From: Antedon mediterranea
Taxonomy: Eukaryota > Echinodermata > Crinoidea > Comatulida > Antedonidae
Reading direction: 5' to 3'
Assembly: GCF_964355755.1 (NCBI RefSeq)
Contig: NC_092672.1
Span: forward strand, 24,610,501-24,674,500
DNA length: 64,000 nucleotides
A model generated the notes under the pieces. That model saw only the letters and a program-made list of their open reading frames with translations, was not told where the DNA came from and did no database searches. Shown piece by piece: positions 2,849 through 59,400 of the stretch. The position numbers and the translations under genes were made by a program. The stretch's first letter is position 1. Each line of letters opens with the position of its first letter.

Positions 2849-2952
2849 GTAATTGTATTAAACTACTGTGGAGTAGGGAATAGGGCAAAACATCTGACCA
2901 ATTACTCAACTCCCTGACGCAAAGCTACTCCACAGTAGTTTAATACAATTAC
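2849..2952. repeat. Perfect 28-bp inverted repeat with 48-bp spacer (MITE-like)
   Basis: The arm at 2849-2876 is the exact reverse complement of 2925-2952 (the outer right end reads AATACAATTAC). The element is 104 bp in total. It may be a small foldback or MITE; no clear target-site duplication was identified. Confidence 0.8.
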
Positions 2953-2984
2953 GCTGCGTACTTGGGCTCGAATCTAACCACTAG

Positions 2985-3058
2985 CCATCAGCGCAAGTGG
3001 TCAGAGGTATGAACGGCAGGCTAGTGATCTGGAGGTCGTGGGTTCGTCTCCCACCCAA
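2985..3058 (+). repeat. tRNA-like sequence, probably a SINE head
   Basis: It has a perfect T-arm (GTGGG, loop TTCGTCT, CCCAC at 3038-3054) containing a B-box-like GGTTCGTCTC, and an A-box-like TGGTCAGAGG upstream. The anticodon arm is poor, so this is more likely a tRNA-derived repeat than a tRNA gene. Confidence 0.35.
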
Positions 3059-3604
3059 GAACTTTTTTTGCAAGTATTCTCAAATGTACTTAGTATGAAG
3101 TACAAATGACGTCAGAGTTGGGCAAAACATCTGAACAATCATTCAAATATACCAAATTCTATATTGTGTGGTGTCTGGTACAGGGGTATGGCTACATCAG
3201 TATGGTCATACTCGCTTAGTGCTTAGTATGTGACCTGATTTTAGTGAAGGTGACAAAGTCACATTCCTCAAATATGTATCATGTTCAAATAGACTTTAAT
3301 ACCATATAACCATAACATCTTTATTATTTTGTCTGTTTTTGTTATTGCAAGCATCCATACATATGGGGAATAGAAAGTGACCGCAATTAGGGCGAGGCGC
3401 CTGGGGGTAATGAGGTATCAAACTGACTGATTGTACTGTGAAGTTTTAAACTATAATTGTAACAGGTATTCTGTACTTACTAGTATAAGATATGTTTTTA
3501 TTCAACTGTGATATTTTATGTAAAGGTTGTCATTTTGTTTTTTGTTTTTTTTTTAACAAAAATGTGCATTTCTCTAACATATTTATTTTTAAAATGTTAA
3601 ATAG

Positions 3605-3703
3605 AATGGCGAAACAGCATTGCATTGGGGTGCAGTAAATGGTCATGTTGATGTCTGCCAAATGTTGGTAGACATGGCAGCAGCAGTGGACCAACAAAAT
3701 AAT
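3605..3703 (+). CDS. Exon: ankyrin repeat (first visible)
   Basis: The exon is 99 bp, phase 0 to 0, encoding exactly one 33-residue ankyrin unit: NGETALHWGAVNGHVDVCQM then LVDMAAAVDQQNN. Acceptor AAATAG, donor AAT|GTAAGT. One-repeat 99-bp exons are typical of ankyrin genes. The next exon is 18.3 kb away. Confidence 0.88.
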
Positions 3704-6700
3704 GTAAGTCATAAATTAATGTTTGTATTGAGAACCATTCAGGATCAGAATCCTAAATTTTATTCTTCATTTTAGTTTAAAATGCTTGTTCCTCAAACAG
3801 AATAGCACAAAATGTAACCTAAGAATGGAATTATTTTATTATGGTATAGAGGCTACTTGTTAATACCTTCATATTTTTTTCTTATTTGAAATTTTTATTA
3901 AATTGTCTAATTATTCTACATCTTGAATTTAACATATTTATACCATCAAGATAGTGCAGACAAGTCAACATTAACAACAACAAAATAAACAAGTTTAAAA
4001 TGCTATTTTTTGGGCTATTAAAAAGCTGCAGTTAATCTAGAAATCATTTGGTGGATTACTGTAATTTAGTTATTAATTCTCTATTAAATAAATGTCATGA
4101 AAACTATAGCGCTTAGATTGCTTAGTGCTTGAAGTTGCTTGTTGGTATGACAACTACAACTAATGCAGATCCTGCATTGTATCTGTCTCAGAATATTCTT
4201 GTTTAATCAATCTTTTTTAAACTTTTTTAATCATTACATTAGTAATGCTCATTTTAATACACGATTATAATATTATTGAATGCATTTCATGCATTTCTCA
4301 TTTGTTTCATGCTGCACAATTTTGATGTGTCAGGCACGTTTCTGATGGTAATGGTATCTTGGACCTTGTGTGAATGGATAAAAGGCAAACAACTTTGGGG
4401 AATACATTTTTGTTATACTGATGTTGTCACAAAAGTTTGTAGTTTTTCTGATTTCAGGATATGTTATTTGTAAAGTAATGGCATAAAATTTGAACTGAAT
4501 TCAAATTGAATCAAATATTAAACTTCTTCTTCTACTAAAATGTAGAGTAGACATTACTCTATACATTGATATAAAGAATTAAATGTTTGAACAAGAAAAA
4601 CTGTACTTATAGCTATTTTTTATCATACCCTACCTAAAATTGTTTAATAATCTAGAACTCAGTGTTTTGTTAACGTGTGTTCGTACATATTCATAGCTAT
4701 AAACATGTGCACAACGATGCTTAAATTAAACAGAGTTATAGGCCTACCTATCATATAGTATACTATCAATTATACCCGCCCCAGGGCGGGTTTCAAAATT
4801 AGTTTACAGCCTTCTCAGTACATAACACCCGACGCCATGAGTATCTGTCTATACTCACCAACCTCCACCCCTCTTCAATAACACCCCATACTCTTTCTTA
4901 AAAACAAATTCTTCTCAGTGATGGACAAATTCAATTCAACCTAAGCTTCGAATTGAGAGGTGTATGCATAGCTACGATGGGTCTAATAATGGTTAAATGG
5001 TACATTGTGTAAATGAATAGGTGTCATATTGGCTGATAATTAAAATATGTAATTTAGATACTGCGGTCCCCAGCCTTCTTTCTCCTTTCACCACCCCAGC
5101 CACCAACAAACCTTGACTCCTCTCCTGGACAGTTCAAATTTAGTAACTTTTCCTAGTACAATCCAATCATATAGGATGGATACTACACTACACCCCAGTA
5201 CAAATTATGTTATCACTCCCAACCCATAATCCCTCAGTGGCAGTTTTCAAATACAGTTTCGGTCATGGTGATAGGCCTACATCCCCACCCCATCCGCTTC
5301 CCAGGGATGATTAAATACTTTAACATTTTCCAACCACAATTCTGGTGTAAGCAAAATCCCCACTATCCCCTGAACCCAAACCCTATCTCCCAACCCCACT
5401 CTCCCACAATGGGCATTTTTCCCTTGAAGGATTGGTGGTGTAGTTGAACACAGTAACAGTAAACAACGTTTGTATGTTCACACAGGAATGGATGTTTGTA
5501 CTGAGACAATCCAAGAGACCGATACATAGCTGGATATGGTTAAAGTACTTTGCTAAATGTGTAAATGAATAGGTGTCATATTGGTTAATGAATAAAATAT
5601 GTATATCTATATACGCCTTGCTGAGGATAATTAAAATACTGTAAAACTTTTGTAGTATAATTTTACAATTCAATAGCCTACAACCCCGAGCCCTAGCAAA
5701 AAATGACATCACAAACCACCACACCACCCCCGCCCCACCCCTCCCACAAAAACCCCAGGAGTCAGCGGAATTTTTTAAAATGTAGTTTAAAACCTTCCGG
5801 GTACAATTGCCATCATTTTGATACCCCATACGTATGGTTACGTGCAGAAACAGAAATTTTTATAACGAACAAACATCGAAAGTGGGGGGTTTGACCACAT
5901 TTTGGTCCCTAACTTGGATCCTAGGTGGCGGATGATGTTGAAATATAGCTTAGAACATTCCCGGTACAATTGCGGTCATTTTGATACCCCATATGTAAGA
6001 TTATGTGCAGTAACAAAATGTTGTATAACGAACAAACAAACAAACAGACAGACAAACAGACAAACTCTCTCACTTATAATATAGATATATTTATGAGAAT
6101 TTTATATAAATCATTCTGTAAATTATAGAAACAGTGCTCATATTCGGAACATGGTCTCATAATCGCGTTGAGCATAGCTCATTGGCGAAAGTTCCATACT
6201 TTTTAGTTGTATGAAATAATGTCTCTGGCGGAATTTGAACATGCAACCTCTCGCTTACAGATTTTCACCAACCAGATACATTCTCTCATACAACAAATGA
6301 TATGGACATGTTCATTATTTATATATGTATTGTCCCCCTGAACAATTTATTTTTACATTTATTTGTTGATTATGCCATTTTAATATCATATAATAGTTAT
6401 CCACTTTGACCAAAACTTGGATTGGAAAAAAAATTATTTACCTGAAAAAACTGTAATTTAATTAAGCAAACAAGTCAAATTGCCTGCCATACCAATGGAT
6501 TTTTGGTTTGGTGTCATTTTAGTGAAAACATGATTTTTTCTTCTTTTTTTCTACGCAATTGATTAACTTGATTAAAACTACAAATAACCTATGAAAGTCT
6601 AATTTTATTAATCTTCATTTTTCATGTTTTTGGGGGACAATACATCTTTAAAAAAACATAACCTAATGTCCTTGTTCTACATGGAACCCCCGCAGTTTAA

Positions 6701-21700: not shown

Positions 21701-24700
21701 TTTTTGTTTATTTGAAATTGGAATTTGCACTATTGCAGTATAGTAGAAGAATAGAGAAAGAGTAAAAAAATAATAATCATAAAAGATTGCCTTTGTTAAA
21801 ACCACAAGGGATTTAATAGATTACAGTTATGTATTGTTAGGAAAATACAGTTTTCGATTACAGAAGATTGTAACCGTGGAACTCTTTAAGTAAAAAAAGG
21901 TTAAAATATTGGATGGCTGTATTGTTGTTTGAGTAGTGGTTTCCTTGATTACTTTTTTCCCTTAAAAATATTCAGTATGGTTTGTGCACATTATTGTCAT
22001 CTTTTTTTTCTAGGATGGTAACACAGCCCTGCATGTCTGTGCTCTGAATGATCTTACTTACGATGAGCACAGAAACACTATGGTGTGTTTGATAAAGGCT
22101 CATGGTAGAGGTATTATTTCAAATAAAAATAAGGTAAACTATTTGAGTTAAAACAATTAGAATAATAACATTAATTTTATTAAATAAAAATTAAATGATA
22201 TTCATTTTCATTTTTCATAAGAGTACTCTTTTTGTAAATTTTGGTCCTGTTTATTTCACAACATATTTTCATGCTATTTGTAACCTCCATAGGCCAATTT
22301 ATAATTTCCTCCTATCTTGTAAGTTATGACATAATATTAATAATTAGATTAAATCAGATATATTAATTCACATGTTATGATCAAAGGTACTGTATTACCT
22401 TAATGATTAAATATGATAGTATATGCTTTTGCAATGATTATAATTAATATTTTTAGAATAAAATGTTCCTGATAAATGTTGTTGCTGTACCAAAAATACT
22501 TTGTTTCCATCTCAATATTGTTGTTCATAGTGCTAAACTGACCATCTAATTTGAATGCATTGACATTTATACATTCACTTTATTTATTTGCTTTTACATA
22601 TTTATTATTTTATTAAATATGTCTAATTTGAATGAAATACAAATAATAATATTAATTCTACCGTATATCAATCATTGTTTTATTTACATTTTTTTTTAGT
22701 TTATGAAAAGTAGAAACTTGAGGATTGTCACAATCATGCCTATTATTGTATGTTATTATGATGAATTTTGTAATCACTAATTTATTCTTGGATTCTTACA
22801 TTTTATTTCTTTGATTGTCAGAATGGCAAATCTGTTATTGATTTGTACATTACAAATGTATGTGGAAAATATGAAGATGTCGAAGCCCAAAAGGAAGAAG
22901 TAATGAAATTGTTGAAAGGTTTGAAAGTTTAAATACAGTACAAAACAAGTTTGTTCCACAAAATGCTTTGATAAGTAATCTTGAAAGCAGTGATTACCCA
23001 TCCCAAATTGAAATAATAATAATGCCTATATCAAACAAATAGAATTTATTACAGTTATAATAATAAGAATAATTTCTTTAATGTATATACATCGTTGATT
23101 TTACAGAAAGTAAAATAGATCAATTAATTTCAAAGAACACCATCTCAAAAAGAACCCTATCCAATTGCTGATTACCTAGATTGTTTTACTCATTTATTAC
23201 ATTAAACAATACTATTGATGAATTTGGTTAAAAACTGTTTATATTAGTATAACATTAACAAAAACATCATTCTTAATCTGTTTCTTGTAGCCTTCTTTGT
23301 TATTCTTATTTGTATTGTATTCTAATCTATAGCATATTATAATAAAAAAATACAAAATTAAAATACAAAAATACAATTCTCTGATTGTTTATTGAAGGAA
23401 TTAATATAAATCATTGCCTGACAAAAAGTTAATTTGCAAAATAAAATGTTTAAAATGTTGATCTTTATCTTATTTCCAATATGGTATGTCTTTTTTTTTT
23501 ATTATGAAAGAGCTTCATCAACTTTATATCATACATTCTACTTTCTTTTAGGTGGACCTTTACCAGAAATATATTTCACATCGTCAGGTATGAGTATTCA
23601 CCCATACCATGTCGTACTTCGTGACATGATTTGACACACTTTAGTGTGTAATAAAGAATGTAGAATTATTTACATTTTTACGCAAAAATTGTTGCTTTAA
23701 ACTACATTGTCATTATTCAGTCTACAATCCTTTATGAGGAATATTTCAGCTCAGAGCTGCAATTTAACCCAGGACTCCAGGATTCATAGGCAAACATGTT
23801 ACTTGGGAAGCTTGGATGAAATCTGTTTAAACCATATGTACTTTCATATTTAAAATTGCTATAATATATTATCTTTTGAGAATTATTAGAATATGTTTTT
23901 TTTGTAGATATAACATCTAAAGATATTTTACATGTAGCTAAAAACATGTACAATCAGTTTGAAGAACTAGCTGAATGTCTTGGATTCAAACAGGAAGATA
24001 TTGATTCCTTCCAGGTCAATTCATTTACCAAAACAACTTCAATGTATAAGATGCTGAACGCCTGGTACAAGACAGTACAAGTTACTGAGTCCAGGCGTTC
24101 ACAACTTTGTGAAGCTGTCGGGAAAGCAGGCCGACATGATTTGGCTGATGAAATTGAAAGTAAGTGACACATTACAGGTTAGGTTACTTCCCTCAAACCT
24201 TCAAACTGACTATTTCATAACTTTAAGGGGAAGATTTGTTAAGAGACAGCTGCAGTAAAAGTTTTTTTAAATCCAACAACACAATATTATCCTTGATTTT
24301 AAAATTAAACATATACAAATTAAGCTAACTAACAATATGAGAACAAATTAAACAAATGAATATAGTATACCATATAAGTCCATTTCTCCTGTCTCTTGAA
24401 GGAAGGGGATTATCAACAATGGATTAACATATATACATTATTTTCATTTTAGAACTAATGAGCCTACTTTAATTTTGCAAAAATACTGAATACACAATAT
24501 GTATACATACAACATTTTTTATTAATTTCAGATCTAGCTTTAATGTATTAGTTGTATTTTATTGTTTAAATAATAAAATGTAGAACTGTATGTGCTTAAT
24601 GAACTGTATAACTAATACTTATTTTATTTCTGAGTAGAAATAGACATCCCTTATGCCATATCTGCTCGTGGTAAAGAAGTTGAAAAAGCTTACATTGAAG

Positions 24701-27700
24701 CATTGAAAGAAGGTCAAGTTGAAGTGAATCTTGGAATGGTTAAAGTGATTGGTCAGGAAGGTGTGGGCAAAACTTGCCTGATCAATGCTTGTCTTGGAAA
24801 GAAGTAAGTATAAGTTAAGCTTAGAAATAATGATAATAGTGTTATAGTATTGTAACATTTTATCTGCCTGGATGAGGTATTTTCAAATTTGAGTTAATTG
24901 GTATCTGGTAATAGTCTGGTATCTTTGGAGGATCAAACTGGACTGCCTACCATGTGGGTTTCTCTCTTGAAATGTTACCATATTTATCCACCAATCAGCA
25001 GTCTCACAGCAGGACTGTTCCATAAATAAAGTGGTTTCAAAGTCTTAAGGCCCATTTAAACTAGGACAATAACGATCAATGATAAATATATAAGCATGAA
25101 TGTCTCTTACATAAAACAAAAGAAATAGAGACGTATTTTTTTCTAAAACTAGTGGATTTATGCTGTTTTGATAAAAATAATATTTGTTAAAATCCAATCA
25201 AATGACGTCATGCATAATAAAACAAAAAATCATTGTATTGTCACAGTATTATTGCTCTTACTAATCATGACGTCATTTGTTTGGACGTGTGAAAGGAAGC
25301 AAAGAAGGTTATCCTTTAGTTTTACATTTTATATATATTTTGTTTTATGTATGACAAATGCATATTTATCTATCATTGATCGTTATCATCCCAGTGTAAA
25401 TGGGCGTTTACATAGGGCTATCAAATTAATTTTTTTTTAAAAAACTAATTTTGCTACAGTATAAAAACTTCAATCAGTGTATCTAATAATAAATGTTTTA
25501 ATATATACATATATAAACACAAGAGGCAAAGAACATTAATTCTAAACCGCCCGGTGATATACTGAAATTTAATTAATTAATTTGAAACGATAAAGATGAG
25601 GAAATCTGTGAGAATGAGAAAAAGTCGCCCCAACCGAGAATGAGAAAAAGTCGCCCCAACATACATATATACAACGCTTTTACCTTTATATCTAAACATT
25701 AAAATGTTTTTTGATCTAATTAATGATTTGACCACATTTTTCATATTAGGAAAGCTAATATATATATATATATATAACTACTTTATAGTATTTGTTTGTT
25801 TAACACATGCTTTATCTAAAATATTCAAGCAAACATACCAACAAGCAAATTACGACTTTGATGAATTTATTTAATGTTAAACAACTTTATCTAAATTCAT
25901 ACTTGGATGACCAATAATGTTTTTATTATATTTCAGTTTTAACAAAGAGCATTTAATAACAGATGGTATTGCCGTGATTAAAACAGTAGAAACAAAGGCT
26001 AAAGAACAAAACAACTGGACAGAGGATCTTACAGATGATAGTGGTAAAAATGAATAAATTAAAGTATGAAAAATGAAGAGGGATAGATCATAAAGTCAGA
26101 CCATTTAAAGTGTGACATTGTGTTTAATATTAGTGTTCATATACTGTAATTCACCAAGTTCAATTTTCAGGAATAAATCATATCATTTCCTTAATAAATC
26201 TAATTAATTTAATTAACAATGGCTCTAACAAACTTTTCCTAAAAACTAAAATTAATTAAGCAACATTGTAACAAATCCATCACTTAAATATCTCCTTAAT
26301 ATTCAGTAAAATATAAATAGTTATTAGTGAGAAACTGAAAACTAAATGATAGCACATATTGTTATTAAAGGCAGAACAATTTGTGTATTTGTAATTGGAA
26401 TATAGAAGTTTTTAAACCATTATAATACAGTATAACATGAATTGTTTGTAGGTTACTTTTATTTTCAATTTCAACAAGGAATTTTAATTTGATACAACCA
26501 CACTTAAGTGTTAACATTATAATGATAATACAGTCTTTTCAAAATGAGGAGTAAGCTTGTTTCATGTTTTTGAGAAAATAAAGTTGAATATTTTTTACTT
26601 TGTAAAGAGTTCCACAACTTGCTATATTGTACAGCCCCAAAATAAGATTTTATTAATAGACAATTACATAATAAAAACTGTTATTCATTTTCAGGAAATC
26701 CAATTGAATTGTATAAAAGACTTGCTGAAGAAAATATCAGTAAAACAATAGAAGATAATAAAGAAGGTGTAGCAACAGCAAGTAAGCCTCACAGCTCAAC
26801 TGAAAAGGTATGTAGGCCTACACACTATAACAAAAGGCATGTACACAATATAACAAAAGGTGTGTACACACTATAACAAAAGGTATGTACACAATATAAC
26901 AAAAGGTGTGTACACACTATAACAAAAGGTGTGTACACACTATAACAAAAGGTGTGTACACACTATAACAAAAGGTATGTACACACTATAACAAAAGGTA
27001 TGTACACACTATAACAAAAGGTATGTACACACTATAACAAAAGGTATGTACACAATATAACAAAAGGTGTGTACACACTATAACAAAGGTATGTACACAC
27101 TATAACAAAAGGTATGTACACAATATAACAAAAGGTATGTACACACTATAACAAAAGGTATGTACACACTATAACAAAAGGTATGTACACAATATAACAA
27201 AAGGTGTGTACACACTATAACAAAAGGTATGTACACACTATAAGAAAAGGTATGTACACAATATAACAAAAGGTATGTACACACTATAACAAAAGGTATG
27301 TACACAATATAACAAAAGGTATGTACACACTATAACAAAAGGTGTGTACACACTATAAGAAAAGGTATGTACACACTGTAACAAAAGGTGTGTACACACT
27401 ATAACAAAAGGTGTGTACACACTATAACAAAAGGTGTGTACACTATAACAAAAGGTATGTACACACTAAAACAAAAGGTGTGTACACACTATAACAAAAG
27501 GTATGTACACGCTATAACAAAAGGTGTGTACACACTATAACAAAAGGTGTGTACACACTATAACAAAAGGTATGTACACGCTATAACAAAAGGTGTGTAC
27601 ACACTATAACAAAAGGTATGTACACACTATAACAAAAGGTGTGTACACACTATAACAAAAGGTATGTACACACTGTAACAAAAGGTGTGTACACACTATA

Positions 27701-30700
27701 ACAAAAGGTATGTACACACTATAACAAAAGGTGTGTACACACTATAACAAAAGGTGTGTACACACTATAACAAAAGGTGTGTACACACTATAACAAAAGG
27801 TATGTACACACTGTAACAAAAGGTGTGTACACACTATAACAAAAGGTATGTACACACTATAACAAAAGGTGTGTACACACTATAACAAAAGGTGTGTACA
27901 CACTATAACAAAAGGTGTGTACACACTATAACAAAAGGTGTGTACACACTATAACAAAAGGTATGTACACACTATAACAAAAGGTGTGTACACACTATAA
28001 CAAAAGGTGTGTACACACTATAACAAAAGGTATGTACACACTATAAGAAAAGGTGTGTACACACTATAACAAAAGGTGTGTACACACTATAACAAAAGGT
28101 GTGTACACACTATAACAAAAGGTGTGTACACACTATAACAAAAGGTGTGTACACACTATAACAAAAGGTGTGTACACACTATAACAAAAGGTGTGTACAC
28201 ACTATAACAAAAGTTGTGTACACACTATAACAAAAGGTGTGTACACACTATAAGAAAAGGTGTGTACACACTATAACAAAAGGTGTGTACACACTATAAG
28301 AAAAGGTGTGTACACACTATACCAAAAGGTGTGTACACACTATAACAAAAGGTGTGTACACACTATAACAAAAGGTGTGTACACACTATAACAAAAGGTG
28401 TGTACACACTATAACAAAAGGTATGTACACACTGTAAGAAAAGGTATGTACACACTATAACAAAAGGTGTGTACACACTATAACAAAAGGTGTGTACACA
28501 CTATAACAAAAGGTATGTACACACTATAACAAAAGGTATGTACACACTGTAAGAAAAGGTATGTACACACTATAACAAAAGGTGTGTACACACTATAACA
28601 AAAGGTATGTACACACTGTAACAAAAGGTGTGTACACACTATAACAAAAGGTATGTACACACTATAACAAAAGGTGTGTACACACTATAACAAAAGGTGT
28701 GTACACACTATAACAAAAGGTGTGTACACACTATAACAAAAGGTATGTACACACTATAAGAAAAGGTGTGTACACACTATAACAAAAGGTGTGTACACAC
28801 TATAACAAAAGGTGTGTACACACTATAACAAAAGGTGTGTACACACTATAACAAAAGGTGTGTACACACTATAACAAAAGTTGTGTACACACTATAACAA
28901 AAGGTGTGTACACACTATAACAAAAGGTATGTACACAATATAACAAAAGGTGTGTACACACTATAACAAAAGGTGTGTACACACTATAAGAAAAGGTGTG
29001 TACACACTATAACAAAAGGTGTGTACACACTATAAGAAAAGGTGTGTACACACTATACCAAAAGGTGTGTACACACTATAACAAAAGGTGTGTACAGACT
29101 ATAACAAAAGGTGTGTACACACTATAACAAAAGGTGTGTACACACTATAACAAAAGGTATGTACACACTGTAAGAAAAGGTATGTACACACTATAACAAA
29201 AGGTGTGTACACACTATAACAAAAGGTATGTACACACTATGACAAAAGGTGTGTACACACTATAACAAAAGGTATGTACACACTATAACAAAAGGTATGT
29301 ACACACTATAACAAAAGGTATGTACACACTATAACAAAAGGTGTGTACACACTATAACAAAAGGTGTGTACACACTATAACAAAAGGTGTGTACACACTA
29401 TAACAAAAGGTATGTACACACTATAACAAAAGGTATGTACACACTATAACAAAAGGTATGTACACACTATAACAAAAGGTGTGTACACACTATAACAAAA
29501 GGTATGTACACACTATAAGAAAAGGTGTGTACACACTATGACAAAAGGTGTGTACACAATATAACGAAAGGTATGTACACACTATAACAAAAGGTATGTA
29601 CACACTATAACAAAAGGTGTGTACACACTATAACAAAAGGTGTGTACACACTATAACAAAAGGTGTGTACACACTATAACAAAAGGTGTGTACACACTAT
29701 AACAAAAGGTGTGTACACACTATAACAAAAGGTATGTACACACTATAAGAAAAGGTGTGTACACACTATAAGAAAAGGTGTGTACACACTATAACAAAAG
29801 GTGTGTACACACTATAACAAAAGGTGTGTACACACTATAACAAAAGGTGTGTACACACTATAACAAAAGGTGTGTACACACTATAACAAAAGGTGTGTAC
29901 ACACTATAACAAAAGGTGTGTACACACTATAACAAAAGGTGTGTACACACTATAACAAAAGGTGTGTACACACTATAAGAAAAGGTGTGTACACACTATA
30001 ACAAAAGGTGTGTACACACTATAACAAAAGGTGTGTACACACTATAACAAAAGGTGTGTACACACTATAACAAAAGGTGTGTACACACTATAACAAAAGG
30101 TATGTACACACTGTAAGAAAAGGTATGTACACACTGTAAGAAAAGGTATGTACACACTGTAACAAAAGGTATGTACACACTGTAACAAAAGGTATGTACA
30201 CACTATAAGAACATTCCCATACGACGGGGCTATGCGAGCGAAGCGAGCTTCACTAGGCTGGGGGTCAGGAGGCGAAGCCTCCGGAATCAACATGTTTTAG
30301 CGTCATTTGAGGCCACTTTAATCAGATTTTGGGTATTCGTATCACTTTTTTCCATTTTTTATAATGCATAAATAAGATACTGCTTGCAAAAAAACGATAC
30401 GCGATGACTGTTTAAATCCATATTTTTCAATTTAAAAAATAAAAGTTCAAAATATGCCTATATTTATCGGGTAAATTGTAGCATAGAAAATATACGCAAA
30501 CGTAAAACGTACCCACAGACCAAGAGGTAGGCCTATATTGTTTATTGCAGAGGCGTAGGCTGGTTGCTGTCTGGGGGTGCAAACATAGTAAATGGGTGCC
30601 TTGGGCTGATCTGTAAGAAAATTTTGAAAAATAGAGCTGCTAGGTCCTTGGAAGTTGCAATTATACATAATATTGATGGGCCTACTATGAAACGAAATTA

Positions 30701-33700
30701 CAAGTCTACAGAACGAGACAACCGTGGTTGGGATGGAGCTAAGAAAATTCTGAAAAATAGAGTTGGAGATCCCGGAAATTGGACTTTTTATACTTCAAAA
30801 CAAACTGTATAAGTCAATATCATGGTTGTGACTGAGCTATGAAATGTTTGAAAAATAGAGCTGTTTGGTCCCGAAAAATGCATGTATTGTACTTCGAAAT
30901 ATGACCAGCTTTATGGTTGGGGCTGAGCTAAGAAAACTTTTAAAACTAGAGCTGCAGGTCTTTAAAAATTGCATCTTATACTTTGAAAACATCAGGCCTA
31001 GAGGCTTAAAAAAAGTGGTCGCAAGCGACGGGAAAATCAGTTTATACCTCCCAAGTGTATGCGTGCGTACCATCTGGACTTCCGAGTGGTGAGAAGTTCA
31101 TGATATACTGGACATTGAAAATTTAATACCTTAATATAGTACAAAAGTTAGCTATAATAAGATGTTGGCTAAGCGAAAATTGCATGTTTTTTTGTTTAGT
31201 AATGTATGAAATATTTATTTTAGGTGCCCCACGGTACAGAGGGTTACTTGTAAATTAAAAAATTGGTGAACATATGAAAAATTGACATAATTCATTTTTG
31301 CTTTAGCGTACATTCTAGGCTCCCCGACGAAAGGGTTAGATTGTAGTAATTTAAAGCAAAAAATTGTAAAATTGGCTGCTAGTCAGTGGGTTTTGGCTTG
31401 AATGTATCCATTTATTTTATCATTTTATAAGTGACCAATTTATTAATTTTTTCATTTTTTTTTCATCTTTCATGTTTTTTTGTGGGACAATACATCTTTA
31501 ATGAAATTGTTGTTAATATAAAAGTTGCTTTCAAAAGACATCAGACCTCCCAACTCTCTCCCTAAAATACAATTTATTTTGGATTAACCAACAAAATATC
31601 CAAAGTTGTTAAATAAAATGTTACTACTCTAGAAATAAACTGAACGTAAGATATTCATGGATTGTTTAATAAGTGAAGTAATAAGTTTGCCATGTTTACT
31701 ATTATAAAAAATAAGTGTTCTTGGATTTGATTTTTTTTTTTGTAAGTAAATATTATAGCACCCTCTATAGTGTGGACATGCTTTTATAAAGTCTTCCAAT
31801 ATTTCTAAGTTGGGAAGTCCAAAACTTCCTTCTAAATTATATTAATAATTAGAGCATAGCATTTCATATTTGTATAGAAACCTTTACCAATGACATTGCT
31901 TTAAATCTTAATTACTTAATACAGATTCACTTTTTTATTTCTTGCCAGGAAAAGTCACGCCCAAGTAAGAGAGACAGAAAGTACAAAGGAATACAATTTC
32001 CTGGTATAAATTGGGGGAAAACATTTTTTCGTCAAAAGGTAAGGTTTTCTGTAATCAGTTTATTGAGTTTGGTGATTTACGAATTGATTTAGAAATAAAT
32101 ATTCATGTACATTTTGATAAACTAAATGTATGTTTTTTAGTTCAAAACTACCACAAACAGCAAAACCACCACAAACAGTGGTAAGTTCATTTTATTTTTC
32201 TAACAGCTATACAATTTAACTCAGTTCATCTAATAGATAAATTATGATTTTCTTCTACTTTATTTTTTATTTACTCATATTTTAGAGGTGAATACTGGAA
32301 CACCTGCAAAAGCTAAAGATGTGAGTACTACAATATAGCATTTGTTGACTGTTCTATTTAACTCAACTCTGTCTCCTTGAAAAGAACAATCCATCTTTCT
32401 TTCAACTTTCAAATTCATTACCGTACTTGTATAACTTGTATACTGAAAATAAGGAATTAAATCTGTTATACTTTTAACATTAGCCCTAGAGTAGTTTTGG
32501 CAGTTTATCCGACTATTTTACTTAATCATTTTGATTTAGCTTTTCTTTATTCTATTAAGATCCAGCCACTGATAGCCACAGTATTGTCAGTAATTTGCCT
32601 TTGAATTTATATACTTACTTTTGACATGATATACAACATTATACTGATATGAATGGTTCAGAAAGTAAAACATTTACTTCTATGTTATTTATATAATATT
32701 TGTTATTTTTATATTTGTGCATCAGGTTAGCAAGAAGTCAACTGCAGAAGGTAAGTGTGTAATTAACTTAAATTCTTAATACTTTAATTGTGCAAGTATA
32801 AAATAATGGAACATGCTGAGTGAATAATAATAGAATTAGTGAATGATAAAAATGATGATTCACAAATAATAATAATAAAGTTGATAAAATTAACAGTGAA
32901 ATTGTTTACTACAATGATCAAGATAGCCTTTCTACCCAAAGAAGAACCATTTAATCACTTTTTACATCTTTTCTTGTTATGTTATGTTTAATAAGTTTTA
33001 TCTTTTAAACATTTTAATTGTAAGAAAAGTGATTTACTGAAATATTGTTGCTACAGTATATAAGTGCATTATAAATTTATTTTTTATCTTTTATAAATAT
33101 CATGTGTAATATTTTACTAAAATGAGAAAGAGGTAGATCACTATTATTCAAATTGTCATTTAAGTGCAATAATGTTAAAAACAAAAACCAAAAATTAGGT
33201 TGAGACCACGAAACACAACCAAAAAAATGAACGTAAAGATATAATGATAAAGATAATGACAACAGAGAATTGCCACAGAGAAGATGTCATTGATAATAGT
33301 AACATTTAGACAAATGATAATAGTTGTAGAGCTGATAATGATGATATATTCAATGTCTATTATCTTTTTACATATATTTAGTCTATTTGATTTGTAAACA
33401 ATATTTTTTAAACATTTTTCCCGTTGATTAATAAAGGAACTGAAGATGCATCATTGAATGTCCAACAATCGTTGGATAAAGATATTATTCAGGAAATTTT
33501 TTCAAAACAAGAAGTAAAACAGTCTCCTTTGGAAACTTTTAACATTTGGGATCACTGGGGACAGTTAATCTATCAAGGAATACATCAGGTAAGTTTAGGA
33601 CATTTTGTATGTTTGTATGGTCTATTGTTTGTGTATTAACAGTTTTAATGCCTAATTATGGCAGTATCTTATCTGTATCACATGGATAGGATTCTGCTGT

Positions 33701-36700
33701 GTGTAGGTAGGTGGGAACATGACCACTGTACAGATTGTTGTTTAGGCCTTCCACCTATCCTAATGTTAACAGATTACCCAACAAACCTCTGTGTATCTCT
33801 TCACACACCCAATCTATAAAGTTTTGCAAGCTATCCATAGACTTCTCTCACTACATGTGAAGTGAATTAGCAGAGCTTTTTCTCTATTTAGCACTCTGAA
33901 CTATTTCTAAAGTTTACTTTTCTTTATTCTAATATATTTGTATTCTATTCACATTATTTCTATATTGCTGTTTTAAGAGATAAGTATTTCTTTGATGATA
34001 TGCGGTCTATATTAGTAGAGCAGTTAGTGCCATGAAAATAGCCAAGTTGTGCACTTTATTACCAAAGCATGAAACTTGCCACAAAGTTTCTTTGATGTAT
34101 ATAGATTCAAAATATCGGGGGGTGCCAAGTGTCCAACGTCCGGTATGGCGGCCATCTTGATTTCAAAATGGCCACCATAAAAACAAAAAGTCTTCATATC
34201 TTGGCAACTATAAACAGTAGAGACTTGATTCTGGTGTTAAATTGTTCACAAACCACATATTTCTATTTGCTCTAATGAAAAGTTTCGTCAAAAAATGACC
34301 GGAAATGACGTTTCTCCCAGTTTGACTTTTGACCTCTTATCTGTATATCTCAGTAACTACTGATCATTTTCAATCGATTTTGGTGTCATTTTGTTCAGAA
34401 TAGAGACATTTATATTTGTAGTAATGAAACATTTTCACATAAAATGACTGGAAATACAATTTATAACCTTTGGCATATATAATATGTGAACATACTGTAT
34501 GTGGTTTACATTGGTATAAATGCACCTAATTTTTTTTTTAACGAAATAAATGACACTGCAAAAATGAGCAGGAATTATTATTCTGAATTTTTGACTTTTG
34601 ATGTGATAGGATAGGCGTAAAGTATGACAGATCACTGAGAAACAGCAATCACTGAGCTCATCTATGCCGACTTGTTTGCTAAACTGTGATGTGTCAATCG
34701 TTAGATAAAAGTTTTGGTCCTCTCTCCATCATCTTTTTTTTTTGCAATGTATTATACCATATGGACAATTGTCTGAAATAAAAGTTGAATTGAATTGTTA
34801 GATGCCATTTGGAAATATTTTTGATGTAAAGTAGCATTCTTTCGTTGGCCTCTTTGATGTTGCATATGAGACAAGTTCGGAAAGTTTTCATTTTCATGAG
34901 TTAAGAGAATACCGTCTTTCAAACTTACTACAAACTTATCCTGCATTTGTGCAGTAGACCTACTTTCATTAGTCAAAAACTCAGATAATTCTTGTTCATT
35001 TTCGTTGCATCTAAAAAAATGTACTCCATTTTTATGGTAATGGGCCTTTGCTGTAAACCATCTGTATCCTTTTCCTCGATTTTCTCTACTCATTGATTTT
35101 TTAGCAAAATCCGAACCAAATCAATTCGTAAAAGACATCTCAATATAATTATTCAAGTAATTCTCAAATTAGTGACATGGACCTACAATATACTGTTCTG
35201 TACAAGACCTTTTTAGGCATCCACTTGTGGACTTTCACTTTGAAGGTCTTGGTCTCCTAATCATACAAGAAACAATGTCTGATTTAATCAATCAAAGTAG
35301 TGGGTCCAGACAAAGAAGGGGATGTAAGACCATCCACAGACAAAGAAGGGGGTATAAGACCATCACAGACAAAGAAGGGGGTATAAGACCATCCACAGAC
35401 AAAGAAGGGGGTATAAGACTATCCACAGACAAAGAAGGGGTGTAAGACCATCCACAGACAAAGAAGGGGGTATAAGACCATCCACAGACAAAGAAGGGGG
35501 TATAAGACTATCCACAGACAAAGAAGGGGTGTAAGACCATCCACAGACAAAGAAGGGGGTGTAAGACCATCCACAGACAAAGAAGGGGGTATAAGACCAT
35601 CCATACACAAAGAAAGGGGTGTAAGGCCATCTACAGACAAAGAAGGGGGTGTAGGACCATCCACAGACAAAGAAGGGGTGTAAGACCATCCACAGACACA
35701 GAAGAAAGGGGTGTAGGACCGTCCACAGACAAAGAAAGGGGTGTAAGGCCATCCACAGAGAAAGAAGGGGTGTAAGACCATCCACAGACAAAGAAGGGGT
35801 GTAAGACCATCCACAGACAAAGAAGGTGTGTAAGACCATCCACACAGAAAGAAAGGGGTGTAAGACCATCCACACACAAAAAAAGGGGTGTAATACCATC
35901 AACAGACCAAGAAAGGGGTGTAATACCATCAACAGACAAAGAAGGGGATATAAGACCGTCCACAGGCACAGAAGGGGTGTAAGACCGTCCACAGACAAAG
36001 AAAGCGGTGTAAGACCGTCCACAGACAAAGAAGGGGGTGTAGGACCGTCCACAGACAAAGAAGGGGGTGTAAGACCACCCACTGACAAAGAAAGGGTATA
36101 GGACCACTTACAGACAAAGAAGGGGGTATAAGACCATCCACAGACAAAGAAGGTGATGTAGGACCATCCACAGACAAAGAAGGGGGTGTCGGACAATCCA
36201 CAGACAAAGAAGGGGATGTAAGACCACCCACAGACAAAGAAGGGGGTGTAAGACCATCCACACACAAAAAAGGGATTATAAGACCATCTACATACAAAGA
36301 AGGGGGTATAAGACCATCCACAGACAAAGAAGGGGGTATAAGACCATCCACAGAGAAAGAAGGAGGTGTAAGACCATCCACAGACAAAGAAGGGGTGTAA
36401 GACCATCCACAAACAAAGAAAGGGGTGTAATACCATCAACAGACAAAGAAAGGGGTTTAATACCATCAACAGACAAAAAAGGGGGTATAAGACCGTCCAC
36501 AGACAAAGAAAGGGGTTCACGACCATCCACAGACAAAGAAGGGGGTATAAGACCATCCATAGACAACGAAGGGGGTGTAGGACTATCCACAGACAAAGAA
36601 GGGGGTGTAGAACCATCCACATACAAAGAAGGGAGTGTAGGACCATCCACAGACAAAGAAGGGGTGTAAGACCATCTACATACAAAGAAAGGGGTGTAAG

Positions 36701-39700
36701 ATCATCCACAGACAAAGAAGCGGGTATAAGACCATCCACAGACAAAGAAGGGGGGTATAAGACCATCCACAGACAAAGAAGCGGGTATAAGACCATCCAC
36801 AGACAAAGAAGCGGGTATAAGACTATCCACAGACAAGGAAGGGGGGTATAAGACCATCCACAGACAAAGAATGGGGTATAAGACCATCTACAGACAAAGA
36901 AGGAGGGGTAGGACCATATTACCGAGGAAGCATAGGCCTACAAAAAGAAGATGCAATCAAAATAGGCCTACCAGCCACTTGGAAAACAATAAATTCTAGA
37001 TTAACTGAGGCTTGATAATTGAAATATAAAGGGTTCTTTGTAAGGTCATTAATAATATATTGATATAAACACGATCATCATACTATTCATTTGACATTCA
37101 AATACAGTCTATCTCGAAAAGAAGCTCATACTATCACCTTTTCGAGGTTTGACGGTATTCCATAACATGTATGTTATTTCCTCTGTCAAACTATTAAAAC
37201 TTTTAGCGAATCAGAAGGTGCCAACATCGTTGAACTATTAATGGTACCACCAAGCACAATATTTACCAATTTTATGTACAATATACAATTTAAGTACATT
37301 AATCATTTAATATAATTACGCCTATCAGGTCAAAGTTCAAAATTAGGTGCATTTAAGACCACCAAAAACCACATACAGTATATTCACATAATTAAAAATC
37401 AATAATTAAATGTCAAGGGTCATAAATTGTATTTCCGGTCATTTTATGTGAAAATGTTTCATTACTACAAATATAAATGTATTTATTCTGAACAAAATGA
37501 CACCAAAATCGATTGAAAATGACCAGTAGTTACAGAGATATACAAATACGAGGTCAAAGGTCAAACTGAAAGAAACGTCATTTCCGGTCATTTTTGGACG
37601 AAAATTTTCATTAGAGTAAATAGAAATATATAGTTTGTGAACAATTTGAGACCAGAATTAAGTCTCTAATGTGTATAGTTGCCAAGATATTAACATTTTT
37701 TGTTTTTATGGTGGCCATTTTGAAATCAAGATGGCCGCCATACCGGACGTTGGACACTTGGCACCCCCCGATATTTTGAATCTATATACATTATAGAAAC
37801 TTTGTGCCAAGTTTCATGCTTTGGTAATAAAATGCACAGCTCATGTCATTAACTGCTCTACTATATGTTCTGGATATATTTATTGATTTTAGAAGACACT
37901 GCATTAGTAGGCTTTACTATCCTTGTCAAATAGTTTATAAATTATTGTTTTTATTTTGTATGCAGATCTTTGTGACATCAGAGGCAGTTTATGTTGCTGT
38001 CTTTGATTTGAGTAAAGACCTCGATGATCCTGCATTAGTAATAGATCCCAATGGGGTAAGTATTTCAGGGGTATTAGATTAGATGTTGTTAACAATCTCA
38101 TTCATTGGTTAAAAGTAAAATGCTTTCATTGCATTGCAATGTAGCTGTGTCAAAGAATGTCATACTTACTTTTATATATATAGACTAGTGCTGTTGCACC
38201 GTACCACGCCGAGAATGTTAAAGAGTCGCTATCCAATCAAGTTTGAACAATACCATGAAAGCCCCAGTGGTCTAATGGTTAGGACATCTGCATATCAAGC
38301 AGAAGGTTCCGGGTTCGAGTCTTGGTTGGGGCGATTTCTTCAGAGATCCCGTTTCATGAATAAAATACTGAAAGATGAGGGCGTATCAATTTGATCTCTG
38401 GTGCGTGTGCGTACAACTGAGGGTCTAGTGCTGTTCCGCCGTACCACGCCGAGAATGTTAAAGAGTCACTATCCAATCGAGTTTGAACAATACCATGAAT
38501 GGTTAGGACATCTGCATATCAGGCAGAAGGTTCCGGGTCGACTTTTTTTCATTCCCACAGATTTCCTCATCTTATCGTTTCAAATTAATTAATTCAATTT
38601 CAGTATATCACTGGGCGGTTTAGAATTTATTCTGTGCCTGTGATGTTTATATGTATATAATAACCTAAAGTTGAAATTATACTATTTTTGTTTGCTGCTA
38701 AAATAATATACAATTTCTCATAGATTTTTATAGAAAATTATTATTTAAATTTAACAAATTATTTTTTACAGCAAGAACGTGAACATCATTGGACAAATCG
38801 TCAGTTTTTACTGTCTTCGATCCTGTCAGTTTATTCCCATAGTCGTATATTGGGAGAGAATTGAGAAGGAAGTAAATTTACCTGCTATCCTTGTTGTTGG
38901 CACACACAAGGCAAGTCTGGGAGAAACAGAAGAAGAACAAAATAAAGAGGTTAGTAATAATCTATAATAGGTTTGTGTTTACAGTTAATACAAAGCTTAA
39001 AATATTTGTCTTGGGCACATGTACCACAATGGGTATAGTACATTGAAACTGTAGGACTAATAATAAATCAATTTACACAGTTTTAAATCCACCAAATGTA
39101 ATTTAGCTTTTTGTGCAAATTAAGTTGACATGAAATAAAACAAGTGATTGTCAAATTTGAAATATATAAAGAATATACTTGATGAAAATGAAACATAGAA
39201 GAGGACATTTGGACTTTATTAATATTACTACATGTTAGCATTTTAAGGTCTTAAAATAAACTTTTGGAAAGAAAAATTAACAATTCTTTTTGTATGTTTA
39301 AATACGGTGCTGTTTTTATTGTCTTTTGTTTGTATATTATGTAGTAGTGTTTAATTTTTTTTAAATCCAGGCCGAGGTGGTTTTACAGAAAGTTCAAGAT
39401 TCCCTGAAAGGAAAACCATATGAAAAACATGTACTTGGATACTATGCTGTTGAAAACAGTAGAGAGACTACAGACAAGGGCTTTAGTGATCTGAAAGAAG
39501 TAATTCAAGATCTTATGAACCATTTAAAACGGTCTATTCCATTAAAGTGGATGCGTTTTAGATGTGAAATGTATAATCTGAGGAAGGACAAATTGATATG
39601 TTCTGCAGAAGAGGTATTTTATTATAAATTTTGTTTTTAGGGAAAGCAAAACTTGTTCAATAATAAATATTGTGAAGGCAAATCACTTTTCTTTAACAAC

Positions 39701-46168: not shown

Positions 46169-48849
46169 CTCTCTCTCGAAGTGCCATATCATGAGACTTT
46201 GGCGATCATGTTGTGCCACAATTCTCTGTCTATTGCCATATTCAGCAACTCCACTTCTTTGGTATTCTCCCCTCTATTCCGAATCCATTCAGCTATGCTG
46301 GCCAACCAAGTGACTCTTTTCCTCCCCTGCTCCTTCTTCCTTCTATTTTCCCCGTTAATGCCAAGTTCTCCAGACCTCCCTTCCTCAACACATGTCCCAT
46401 GAATCTCATCTGTCTAATCCTAATATCCTTCAGTAGTTTCCTGCATACTCCAGCTCTTATCAATACATCTTCATTACTAACTCTATCTGTCCATGGAATT
46501 CTCATCATTCTCCTTAGAAACCACATCTCACATCTTTCCAATCTTTTTCTGAGGTCAGTTGTGATTGACCAGGCTTCACTTCCATACATCAGCACAGGAT
46601 AGATGTAGCAGTTTAATACACGCAACCTGGTTTCCATACTCATCGCACAGTTCTTCAAGATATTCTCCATTTCTCCAAATGCGGATTTCGCAAGGACTAT
46701 CCTTCTCTTTATCTCCGTTACACACCTGGCATCATCTGTTATTTTGCTCCCAAGATAGTTAAAAGAGGACACCTGCTGAATTAACTGGTCTCCTGCTTGA
46801 AGGTTACACGTTGGACTCTCCTTTTTTGACACTACTAAACACTCTGTCTTACTACAATTTATAGACAGACCCATCTTTTCGCTCTCTACTACAACCACAT
46901 CCAGCAACCTTTGGAGATCTTCAGCTGACTCTGCCAGTAGAACTGTGTCATCTGCATATCTGATGTTTGTAAAATTTCTACCACAAATTCTCAAACCCTT
47001 CTCATTATCTAGCTCCCTCAAGATCAACTCGCTATAGTAGTTAAACAAGTCTGGTGACATTACACAGCCCTGTCTCACTCCTCTTCCAATACTTGTGTAG
47101 TCACTGCACTCCCCATCTACCCTCATGCATGCAGTCTGTTTCCAGTACAAATTTTGCAACAATCTAAGATCCTTTCCATGTAGGTCAAGCTTGCTAAGTT
47201 CTTGAAATAGCTGCTCATGCCTTACTTTGTCAAATGCCTTGGTGTAGTCTATGAAACACATGTATACATCTTTCTCTGCATCTCCACTGCCCTTTCAGTT
47301 ATCATTCTTATCACAAAGATGGCATTCCTGGTGCCTGAATCCTTTACAAAACCATACTGCTCACTCCCAATCTCTGGTTTTAATCTGCTTCTTGCTCTCA
47401 TAAGTAGTATCCTCAGAATGATCTTGGTGACATGACTCATGAGGCTGATTGTACGATGTTTTTCACATTCTACAGCACCTGGTTTCTTCGGAAGGGCAAT
47501 AAAAATGGACTTACTCAGGTCCTCAGGGAAGCTTCCATCCTCGTATATCTTATTGATCACTTCAGTTAACTTTTCCACTCCATACTCTTCTAATGCCTCA
47601 ATCATCTCGATGGCTACACCATCCGGTCCTGCCGCCTTATTCTTCCTCAACCTCTTGATTGCTGTTCGTACTTCTGCTTTCAAGATCTTTGGTCCTTCTT
47701 CTGAGTCAGGAAAGCTTGGCATTGCTTGTCTAACATCAAAAAACAGCTCCCCGATATACTCTGTCCATCTTTTCAAAATATCAGTCTTTTCAACAAGCAT
47801 TGTTCCATCTTTTGCCTTAATGCATCCAGAGTTTGAGCAGCCAGACTTCCTTCCAGTGAACTCATTAAGTCTCTGATAAATCTTGTGGTTGTTGTTCTCT
47901 AGTCCACTCTCAATCTCCTCACACTGTGTTTTAAGCCACTTTTCTTTTGCCTCCCTGCACTTTTGCTTAATTTCTCTATCTAGATCTTTATATTATTTAC
48001 TTGATCTAGTACTAATCTTCTGTCTATCCCTCATCATTGATAGTATCTCTTCCGACACCCATTTGTTCTTCCTTCTTCTCTCTTTCTTAGGTAAGGATTC
48101 TTTGGCTGTCTCAACAAGGATGTCTCTCATTGCATCCCACGTAATCTCTTCACCTTCATCTACAAGGATGTCAAACTTATTCCTCACTTGAATGGAATAT
48201 TCCAAACGGATCTCCGGACTGTTTAGCTGCTCAAAGTCTAATTTCTGTACATTTTTGGCTTTCTTCACCTTTTTTTAACTTTGATTGAAGTGTGCAAACC
48301 ACTGGAATGTGGTCACTTCCACAATCTGCCCCTGGATATGTTTTTGCATGAGTCACTGCCCTTTTCCACCTACTGTTTACTGCAATGTAGTCAATCTGAT
48401 TCCTCGTCACATCACCAGGGCTATTCCTTGTGTATATTCGTCTGGGATGCTCTTTAAACCATGTATTTGTTATGGTCATATCCTTAGCTTTACACCAGTT
48501 CACCCATCTGTCGCCACGCGCATTTCTTTCACCCATCCCATGCTCTCCAACTGTGTTTCCATCTTGTTCATGGCCAACCTTTGCATTCAGATCACCCATG
48601 ATGAAATTTATCTCATCTGATTTGCATTGGGATTTGGCCTGGTCTAAGGTCGCATAAAAGTTATCTATCTCTTCATCTGTGCTGTCAGCTGTAGGTGCAT
48701 AAACCACTATGATAGAGATATTGAAGGGTTGTCCCTGCAGTTTGACCAACATAACTCTTTCACTCACAGCCCAATAGCCCAGCATACATTTAGCCATATC
48801 ACCATCCAAAAGCAACCCCACACCTTTTTCATGTTTGTCTCCTCCAGCG
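46169..48849 (-). mobile_element. 5'-truncated RTE-like LINE (endonuclease and reverse transcriptase)
   Basis: Minus strand. From the 5' side: part of an APE endonuclease of the CFDP2/BovB type (GGDKHEKGVGLLLDGDMAKC; VVYAPTADSTDEEIDNFY; MGDLNAKVG; NQIDYIAVN; GSDHIPVVC, 48849-48270). Then a linker, then reverse transcriptase (NKAAGPDGVAIE; FIDYTKAFDKV; GVRQGCVMSP; IRYADDTVLLAES) and the end AIDRELWHNMIAKVS with a stop at 46189-46191. It is broken by frameshifts near 48260, 47270 and 46305 and an in-frame TAA near 47995. TATATACT at 46161-46168 and 48850-48857 is a target-site duplication; a CT microsatellite marks the 3' end. The missing 5' part is typical of incomplete reverse transcription. 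Confidence 0.88.
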
Positions 48850-48857
48850 TATATACT

Positions 48858-49580
48858 AGTATAATGAAAACAAATATACAGTTGTGTGCACAATTTAAAC
48901 ATTAAATATGACCACCTGCAATACCATAAGTTACAATTTACAACGTTCATATGAATTCGTTAAAATATTGGTATGTTGCAACTTGAATTGGATAAATCAT
49001 ATTATCAACAATTATGGCGGCAGTACACAACCACATTGATGGATTGGAAGTTGAAGGATTTTTAGATATACAATTGCAACGAATCAAACTGTACAACAGT
49101 ATGTTTGTAAATACAATTTGTTTTGTATCCTTGTTGTCCTTTATTATTAGTATAATACAAAATATGTGTATTTCCAGTTTCAAACTTATTAACATTCACT
49201 TGGAAACAGAATAATGTATACATTATAAAGTGTAGATCATTTAATCATAATCATAACTAAGAATAAATGTTAGTTAAAATAAGAATATTCTGCAATTTTA
49301 ATGCCACTTTGTAAACATTTTTTTATAATTTAATTTTTTTACTGCCATATAATTAAGTTTAGTTTCTAGATGTTTGTTTTACTTTGTTTTTCTGAATAAA
49401 GAAACCTTTATATGTTAGTCTCTAGATGTGTATGGTGTTAACCAAATTAACCAAATGTATTTCTATGTATACATTTTTCAAATTATTTTGTTAAAGCTAA
49501 CTACTTTTCTTAACTATGATACCAGTTATTCCGATATTTACTGTTCAATTCAATTTCGTAACCGATATATGGCAAGAAAT
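48858..49580. other. Intergenic, no gene
   Basis: AT-rich; short frames on both strands have no recognisable domains. Confidence 0.45.
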
Positions 49581-56428: not shown

Positions 56429-59400
56429 TCAGGTACAGTCATGCTCATTGAATTTTTGTGGCCAATGTACGTGTCGTCCAGAGCGAGTTTGGCGGGGTGG
56501 CGACGGTGCGATTGCAATGTGCGTCTCTGTCGTATGATGTTGCTGCCTGACTAGGTCCGTAGAATTAGTTTGATCCGCATCTAAGTAAGCCGGTTTCAGT
56601 CTATCGAGACTTACTGTGTCCTGTTTTCCTGCAAGTTGTACAACGAAAAATTTGTCGCTCCTGCTAACAACTTTAAACGGGCCATTGTAAGGGCACTGTA
56701 GAGGCTTGCGGACTTTATCACAGCGAATGAAAACGTGTAGCTAAATCTGTATGTACGTGTACCTTACGAGAATTGTGTCACGTCGTATGTTTTGCATAAT
56801 GCGCTGCAGTCGATGAATATAGTTACTAGGGTCCAAGTCAGCATTAGTGGAAGAAGGCGTAACAAACTGCCCTGGCAAACGTAACGTGGTGCCGAAAACT
56901 AATTCTGCTGACGATAGCCCCAAGTCTTCCTTGACCACCGTGCGAAGACAAAGAAGTACTAGCGGTAAAGCATCTGACCATAGCTGAGGGTCGTCGAGGG
57001 CCTTAAGCGAACCTTTGAGTTGGCGATGGAACCTTTCTACTAATCCATTTGCTATTGGGTGGTATGATGTAGTGTGTATGCGTTTCGTACCCAGTAAGTT
57101 CACTAGCGCATTAAACAGCGATGATTCAAACTGGCTGCCACGATCGGTAGTAATGGTCGATGGTGCCCCAAACATGGACACCCATTTACAAACGAAAGCT
57201 TTAGCGACGGTTGCTGCCGAAATATCGGGAATCGGTAAATGTGAGCGGTTTGTGGTCTGTGAGCATGAAAAATTCCCTTGCTTCAAGCAAATGACGAAAA
57301 TGTCGGATAGCAAGGTAAGCGGCTAACAGTTCTCGTCCGAATGTGCTGTACCTTGTTTCAGCTGGATTCATTCTGAGTGAGAAGAATGCGATAGGATGCC
57401 AGACGTCTTTTACCATCTGTTGTAGCACACCACCAACCGCAAAGTTAGATGCATCAACCATTAAACATAATGTGGCGGATGAATCGGGATGTTCCAGATA
57501 AGTTGCCTCTGCAAGTGCTACCTTAACAGCCTCAAAAGCCGTAATCGCCGTCGGTGGTAATGTAATCAGTCAACGGATGAACTATATCTGAACATTGAGG
57601 AATAAAACGCCTGTAGAAGTTGATTAATCCTAAGAATTCACGCAGTTTACGGACTGTGTCGGGTACAGGAAATGTTTCGATAGCTTCTATCTTGGAACGT
57701 AGTGGTCGGATACCCATGTCATCGATATGATGTCCCAGAAATGTCAAAGACGAAACTCCCCATTCACATTTGACAGGATTACCTACAATACCAAATTCTT
57801 CAAGACGGTCGAACAACAACTTGAGGTGAATTTCGTGTTCTTGTTCATCATTGCTGGCTATGAGAAGATCGTCGATGTATGCGTATACAAAATCCAAACC
57901 ACGTAAAACTTTATCGATGAACCGCTGGAATGTCTGTGCTGCGTTTCTAAGTCCAAACGGCATTCTTAAAAATTCGAACATCCCAAATGGTGTCGTTATT
58001 GCGGTTTTCGGCACATCTTCTGGTGCAACAGGTATCTGGTGATAGGCTCGTACCAGGTCAATCTTAGAGAAAACTTTCTTTCCCTGAAGCGTATAGCTGT
58101 GAAATCGTGAATATGAGGGATTGGATATCTATCCGGAACTGTAGCATTATTGAGGGCTCTGTAGTCTCCACATGGTCTCCAACAATCACCTTCTGTTTGC
58201 TTCGCAACCATGTGAAGCGGCGAAGACCAGCAACTTTTTGACGGTTAAATAATGCCCAGCTGAAGCATATGGTCAAACTCAGCTCGTGCGATTTTGAGTT
58301 TCTGTGGAGCCAATCTCTGAGGTCGGGCAGCGATCGATGGACCTTTGGTAGTTATACGATGAGTGACATCATGCTTAAGTTTGGCCTCTTTGAAACTCGG
58401 ACGTGTCATTTTGGGAAAATATTTGCCAAGTATTGATTCATAACGTGAATCAATCACAGGTCGAGGCAAAACAGGGCTAAGCGAGCAGAGCTTAGATGCA
58501 GTACCTTGCACACTTAAATTAGTAGTAGAATCAATTAACTTGCGGTGTTTAACATCGACTAACAAACCAAAATGTTGCAGAAAGTCTGCGCCGACAATTG
58601 CTGAGGGAATATCGGCTATAGTAAACACCCATCTGCATGTCCGTCTAAAACCAAAATCAAGTGTTAAAGATCCTTCACCATAGGTGTTGATTTGAGAGTT
58701 GTTAACTGCTTGCAAAACAAAATCACTTTTTCGCTGTTGACGGTCTTGTTTTGTTGCAGAAAGGACGCTAATCTCGGCTCCTGTATCTACTAAAAACTTT
58801 AGTCCAGTATCTCTATCATAAATGTGAAATAAGCGACTATCAGAAATGGTGCCGGACGAATTCTTCGCAGTTATTCGCCGGCTTTGGAGTTTTCCGAAGT
58901 TGGGAAACTGCATGGCGACCTGCACCTACGTGCTGCCTTGCCAAACCGGGTGTGATACCAGCACTGCTCTGAGTCATTTTCATTGGTTTGTGTTCTGGAA
59001 GAACGGTTCCGATTTCGGCTTCTGCTCCTGCTCTTATCCCGATGTTGATCGTTTGCCAAGGATGATACCATTGCGGTCAACTTGTTAATTTCCGCTCGTA
59101 GCGTTTGAATTTCGTTTCGGTCGGCGTTAGCACTTGTCGGGTTAGAGATTGCGGCTATTCTGGGTTGGCTGGGAGACACCTCTAAAATTCTGTCGGCTAA
59201 TTCCGCTATCTGAGCGACGGTAACGTTTCCGCCTGTTGCGGCTAAAATCAGTTGCACGTTATTGGGCAATCGCTGAATGAACAACTGTTTCAAGATCGAA
59301 TCCTCTAATGTGCGGCTTCCTAACAACTGATACATTTTGCGCAATAGTAAGTTGTGTTGGTTTTCTGTCACCCAATTCCTCCGTAGTGAGCAGTTGGTGC

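Follow-up and report, generated by a model that had tools for sequence, protein, structure and literature searches.

A 23-bp minisatellite at an exon-intron junction of Death-Roc-COR genes in Antedon mediterranea, probably founded by the junction's own 5' splice site

A minisatellite with several splice donors is said to have been described by Turri, Cuin and Porter in 1995 in the human gene IFI6 (6-16, G1P3). Its unit is 12 bp long, a multiple of 3, and the reading frame is kept. A further report states that two downstream repeat units act as donors, giving rise to three mRNAs (PMC4526556). In amphioxus, tandem repeats known as 'mirages' lie over exon-intron boundaries, and regular splicing is reported to be undisturbed by them (PMC3087553, PMC3902484). 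The units given there measure 150-160 bp in globin genes, with 3-6 copies, and 10-72 bp in Adh3. Intron gain through tandem duplication of AG/GT sites is discussed in one of these papers (PMC3087553). De Grassi and Ciccarelli (2009) described internal tandem repeats in human genes of segmental duplications; these vary among recent paralogs and some lie at exon-intron boundaries, most being longer units inside coding exons (PMC2812944).

The array analysed here is located in the window, a stretch of 64,000 nucleotides from the crinoid A. mediterranea (C3:24610501-24674500 of a 354-Mb genome, with a G+C content of 26-45% per 2 kb). As in IFI6, a minisatellite sits at an exon end and its units contain donor sequences, which serve as donors in IFI6 and are putative ones here. 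Unlike IFI6, where the frame is kept, the unit has 23 bp, and every downstream donor that was tested leads to a stop. The array shares with the amphioxus mirages (PMC3087553, PMC3902484) a repeat that spans the boundary (in the window, with a 6-bp insertion in the junction unit), holds the splice signals and varies in copy number. It differs from them in its 23-bp unit, in its 73-221 copies and in its occurrence in five dispersed paralogs accompanied by array-free ones. Variable repeats in recent paralogs link it to the human segmental duplications, whereas the present array is almost wholly intronic. Duplicated AG|GT junctions are common to this locus and to the proposed route of intron gain, but no new intron or exon is apparent here and the old intron is merely longer. 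A case of comparable size was not found in the literature searched, the coverage of which was partial. The array is a very large case of a structure that is rare but known from amphioxus and IFI6; its size, its presence in five paralogous copies and the existence of array-free relatives are new.

The host gene is a member of a Death-Roc-COR gene family. A Death-domain exon (23909-24160, +), preceded by AG and followed by GTAAGT, splices in phase 1 into the junction exon; the open frame 23880-24167 matches Pfam PF00531 (Death) with an E value of 1.7e-9. The junction exon has 113 nt (NPIELYKRLAEENISKTIEDNKEGVATASKPHSSTEK; 26695-26807, +), is recognised by homologous exons in paralogs and terminates in phase 0 with CTGAAAAG|GTATGT. 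It is followed by an intron of 5141 bp and by a 90-nt exon of phase 0 (31949-32038, +), which the frame check of the joins shows to be open only with the first donor (donor 0). Small exons and then Roc exons lie downstream, the first of those recognised in the sequence and by Pfam being located at 33437-33588 (+). Hand-joined exon translations match Roc (PF08477, E 2.1e-6). A separate match to COR-A, with an E value of 0.0042, falls short of the curated cut-off.

The initial annotation had placed the start of a 23-bp array at the exon end at 26807, and this was borne out. The array occupies 26803-30209 and consists of a junction unit (26803-26831, +), comprising the last 5 exon nt, the donor GTATGT, the insertion GGCCTA and the remainder of the unit, and of 147 intronic downstream units AAAAGGT(A/G)TGTACACACTATAAC (26832-30209, +). 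TRF, run on the window, returned a period of 23 with 147.5 copies and 95% matches at 26819-30208; the period is regular from 26819 onward because the junction unit carries the 6-bp insertion, which is confined to this unit (one match in the window and none in the 55 loci fetched). The splice signal AAGGT(A/G)TGT is present in 144 of the 147 units: 53 contain the 9-mer AAGGTATGT, identical to the real donor (A type), 91 contain AAGGTGTGT, with G at +3 (G type), and three are broken (two AAGTTGTGT and one AAGGCATGT). At the 9-mer level, the claim that most decoys are as good as the real donor therefore holds for 36% of the units. It fares better for pairing, since the G type is only slightly weaker for U1 in the duplex model (-7.6 versus -8.2 kcal/mol for the A type); five other donors of the gene range from -6.9 to -13.2 kcal/mol in this model. 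The U1 of this genome has the usual 5' end (ATACTTACCTG). Its 42 scored copies form a tandem cluster at C5:15664856-15753000 (L017-L019), many of them about 1.86 kb apart.

Ten copies of the junction exon are present in the genome, five with and five without the array, and all ten end at the matching donor in phase 0 (113 nt in nine copies, 131 nt in one). In the other array-bearing paralogs, A1 (C3:21.10 Mb), A2 (24.05 Mb), A3 (23.67 Mb) and A4 (22.24 Mb), exon and array join seamlessly, unit column 1 lying 5 nt upstream of the exon end, and the GGCCTA insertion is absent. Exon and array occur together in five loci and abut in all of them, with unit counts of 147, about 175, 221, 207 and 73; copy number thus differs among paralogs of one genome (73-221 units), which is a comparison of paralogs and not of alleles. 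Assembly can easily collapse or expand long arrays, but the same junction register recurs in five separate loci that differ in flank divergence and array size, and it is extremely unlikely that the length or place of the array is an assembly artefact.

The array-free paralogs have the junctions AAAAC|GTACGT, AAAAT|GTACGT and AAGAT|GTGAGT. Across the junction, the five copies agree with the unit at 13, 13, 17, 12 and 17 of 23 positions; the fraction of positions within their own locus that do equally well is 0.0059, 0.0067, 0.00034, 0.014 and 0.00017, respectively, i.e., the junctions outscore about 99% or more of the positions of their own locus. Over the 12 nt past the donor, two of the five array-free introns match the unit at 8 positions (share about 0.0055) and three at 4 positions (share 0.44-0.47), the latter not above chance; the array-free copies L006 and L016 are near-identical relatives. 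Considering both the in-register start of the array in five loci and the likeness of the array-free junctions, the 5' splice site of the gene family itself most likely supplied the founder unit. These observations also strengthen the earlier proposal that the array was born from, and is made of, a 5' splice site: the five array-free paralogs share exon end and phase, and their junctions resemble the unit.

The same register would be produced if an array that had existed elsewhere was captured by recombination with the exon at AAAAGGT and selection preserved a functional donor. The 7-nt match would be enough for such microhomology-driven joining, and three of the five array-free introns are unlike the unit past the donor; the other two, however, resemble it. 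Strong matches to the unit were found in nine loci only, all on the + strand of C3 between 21.1 and 24.64 Mb, and no strong array was detected outside this cluster, in a genome search that is a lower bound. Because that search skipped common words, a source array far away might have escaped it. Weak matches on other chromosomes, with 67-74% identity, look like other repeats, and the two that were fetched (L014, L015) contain no blocks of the unit.

Arrays without the exon do exist and would fit a capture. The four loci of group B (L007-L010) hold 15-40 units (unit counts 20, 19, 40 and 16) and no junction exon, so that an array away from the junction, which had been named as contrary to the proposed origin, was encountered in loci without the exon, while exon and array always abut where both are present. 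The group B arrays begin out of register beside transposon-like DNA, with an OGFOD2-like exon (Pfam E 4.9e-15) lying approximately 640 bp ahead of them, and their downstream flank is the intron of the same gene, with 94-97% identity. They therefore look like broken-off pieces rather than sources, and capture of a foreign satellite is considered unlikely. The OGFOD2-like exon is found in 11 places at C3:20.46-25.30 Mb, all on the + strand and four with an array fragment; ten of these exons share 98-100% identity across 41 residues, and the eleventh is split in two. The seven other OGFOD2-like loci contain no 23-bp unit within the 2.5 kb read.

In the window, the array is followed by a truncated copy of a dispersed DNA transposon (30210-31345, end approximate, +), other copies of which have CAGCGGTGGCGCCAGGAT-type ends. 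An origin of the 23-bp unit from this element was rejected, as all eleven other copies read lack an array; in one of the loci (L031), a lone 23-mer resembles the unit when as many as 7 mismatches are allowed.

An origin at the native junction is thus favoured rather than proven. The case for it is weakened by the intronic likeness being significant in only two of the five array-free copies, by the near-identity of L006 and L016, and by the frameshift of the window copy in a Roc exon. This exon (38772-38949, +) has 178 nt in the window and 180 nt in all eight paralogous copies read; the 2-bp deletion causes a frameshift and a stop, while the four remaining array-bearing copies are intact in the matching exon. 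The window copy is probably a pseudogene, or misassembled at this exon.

The proposed mechanism would start with the tandem duplication of a native junction, i.e., the last 5 exon nt and the first 18 intron nt, in one member of the Death-Roc-COR family. The array would then have grown by slippage or unequal exchange and would have been spread by duplication to five gene copies on one chromosome, and the pieces found in four other loci would have been split off from the exon. The working 5' splice site would be the first unit, and the others would be passive decoys that splicing ignores. It is quite probable that the minisatellite was founded by duplication of the native exon-intron junction and that it retains a working donor in its first unit, with passive decoys behind it; that it arose at the junction and was not captured, how it grew and that the first donor is the one in use are what we infer. 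A passive and unstable array that contributes its first unit as the donor is the most likely reading of the sequence.

The passive role of the decoys is in line with the reading frame. In all five loci, a frame continued past the exon end runs into a stop after 45-69 nt. Joining of donor 0 to the next exon leaves the frame open in all five, while the downstream donors lead to a premature stop in 149 of 149 cases (first 700 nt of each intron, five loci). Splicing must therefore ignore the decoys, because the use of any tested one would end the reading frame. The suggestion of the initial annotation that the exon could grow in 23-base steps was not upheld at the level of protein, since for the donors tested such growth cannot lengthen it. 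Use of a decoy could cause loss of the transcript, or truncation.

Selection on the decoy donors left no sign in the column variability of about 916 aligned units: donor columns 3-11 vary by 1.94% and the other columns by 1.89%, and in order of increasing variability the two GT columns come 15th and 4th among the 23. The junction donor is GTATGT (A type) in all five loci, versus 30-58% of the inner units; as these loci are related and non-independent, this may be taken as weak evidence for constraint. In the amphioxus mirages, boundary units escape homogenisation, and the A-type junction donors, together with the confinement of GGCCTA to the junction unit of the window, might reflect a similar escape. 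An apparent trend towards stronger donors nearer the exon was seen by eye in the unit string of the window only, is absent in the other loci and was dismissed. Recursive splicing through AAAAG|GT was considered on sequence grounds and set aside; each unit holds TATAAC and AG|GT but lacks a pyrimidine tract.

The decoys might nevertheless be in use, with array length tuning exon length or expression via U1 trapping or nonsense-mediated decay. U1 trapping and stepwise sliding of the donor had been raised as possibilities in the initial annotation. The number of identical 9-mers, the 91 donors that pair nearly as well and the usual 5' end of U1 would allow it, and the combination of five array sizes in one genome with premature stops from every decoy tested makes a decay-based dimmer possible. 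Conservation, however, is not donor-specific, a protein with a lengthened exon is excluded for the donors tested, and amphioxus genes with duplicated junctions are reported to splice normally (PMC3087553, PMC3902484). Tuning by the decoys is therefore held to be improbable.

The array may also affect the accessibility of its donors. G at +3 completes a 12-nt palindrome, GTGTGTACACAC, and the folding energy of eight GUGUGU units is -89.5 kcal/mol, compared with -39.9 kcal/mol when the units are GUAUGU; of 100 shuffled units, each repeated eightfold, none was as stable as the G-type array. In the folding model, the open state is about 9-20 times rarer for donors of GUGUGU units than for those of GUAUGU units in the five loci. 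Hairpins of this kind could hide the decoys and spare the true donor. In the same model, however, the openness of the true donor is 0.002-0.009, below that of the GUAUGU decoys in all five loci, and long runs of A-type units are present in A3. Since the true donor is closed too, masking would not be selective, and despite the strong folding it was discarded as a very unlikely explanation. The palindrome may favour slippage.

The window copy appears to be of mixed ancestry. Immediately upstream of the array it groups with A1 and A2 (36 sites, with 0 favouring the alternative); over 31840-32480 it joins A3 and A4 (19 sites versus 1), and this change of grouping across the array identifies it as a mosaic. 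The switch lies somewhere within 26802-31840, two thirds of which is occupied by the array. Recombination between paralogs is not assigned to the array alone, because the switch could sit at any point of this interval and other blocks are mosaic as well.

It is conceivable, though rather doubtful, that these loci constitute a natural dose series of splice-donor decoys, in which 73-221 rivals, many of them identical to the true donor, follow the same exon and the tested wrong choices break the frame. Work on the choice among equal donors has mostly relied on two or three artificial sites in competition. If the genes splice exactly at the first donor, the choice would be made by position (first transcribed, or exon definition) and not by donor sequence; if they do not, array length would act as a dimmer on immune-type genes via decay of missspliced RNA. 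A single RNA-seq data set could measure the precision of first-donor use, because five copies each present 73-221 near-identical donors behind one exon. The array-free relatives preserve the founder junction and the array-bearing ones display the outcome, so that the family probably documents how a functional signal gave rise to a minisatellite.

Further repeats accompany the gene family. The A1 array is broken for approximately 2 kb (L001, about 2932-4995) by DNA in which CCACGGCAAATT-type repeats form inverted blocks; this is probably a foldback element that entered the array. A second array, with a 63-bp unit in 11 copies (L002, 1-714), lies in the preceding intron and occurs in A2 only among the copies compared. 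Another intron of the window gene contains a 30-bp array of 54 copies (35307-36917), away from exon ends and flanked by what appear by eye to be inverted arms of a foldback element at about 34100-34550 and 37310-37800. Downstream of the gene, open frames of retroelements (reverse transcriptase, Gypsy-like) were recognised by eye at 46293-48959, 56429-59767 and 60208-61436. More distant relatives of the Roc exon, with 73-77% identity, form a large cluster at C4:16.0-19.7 Mb.
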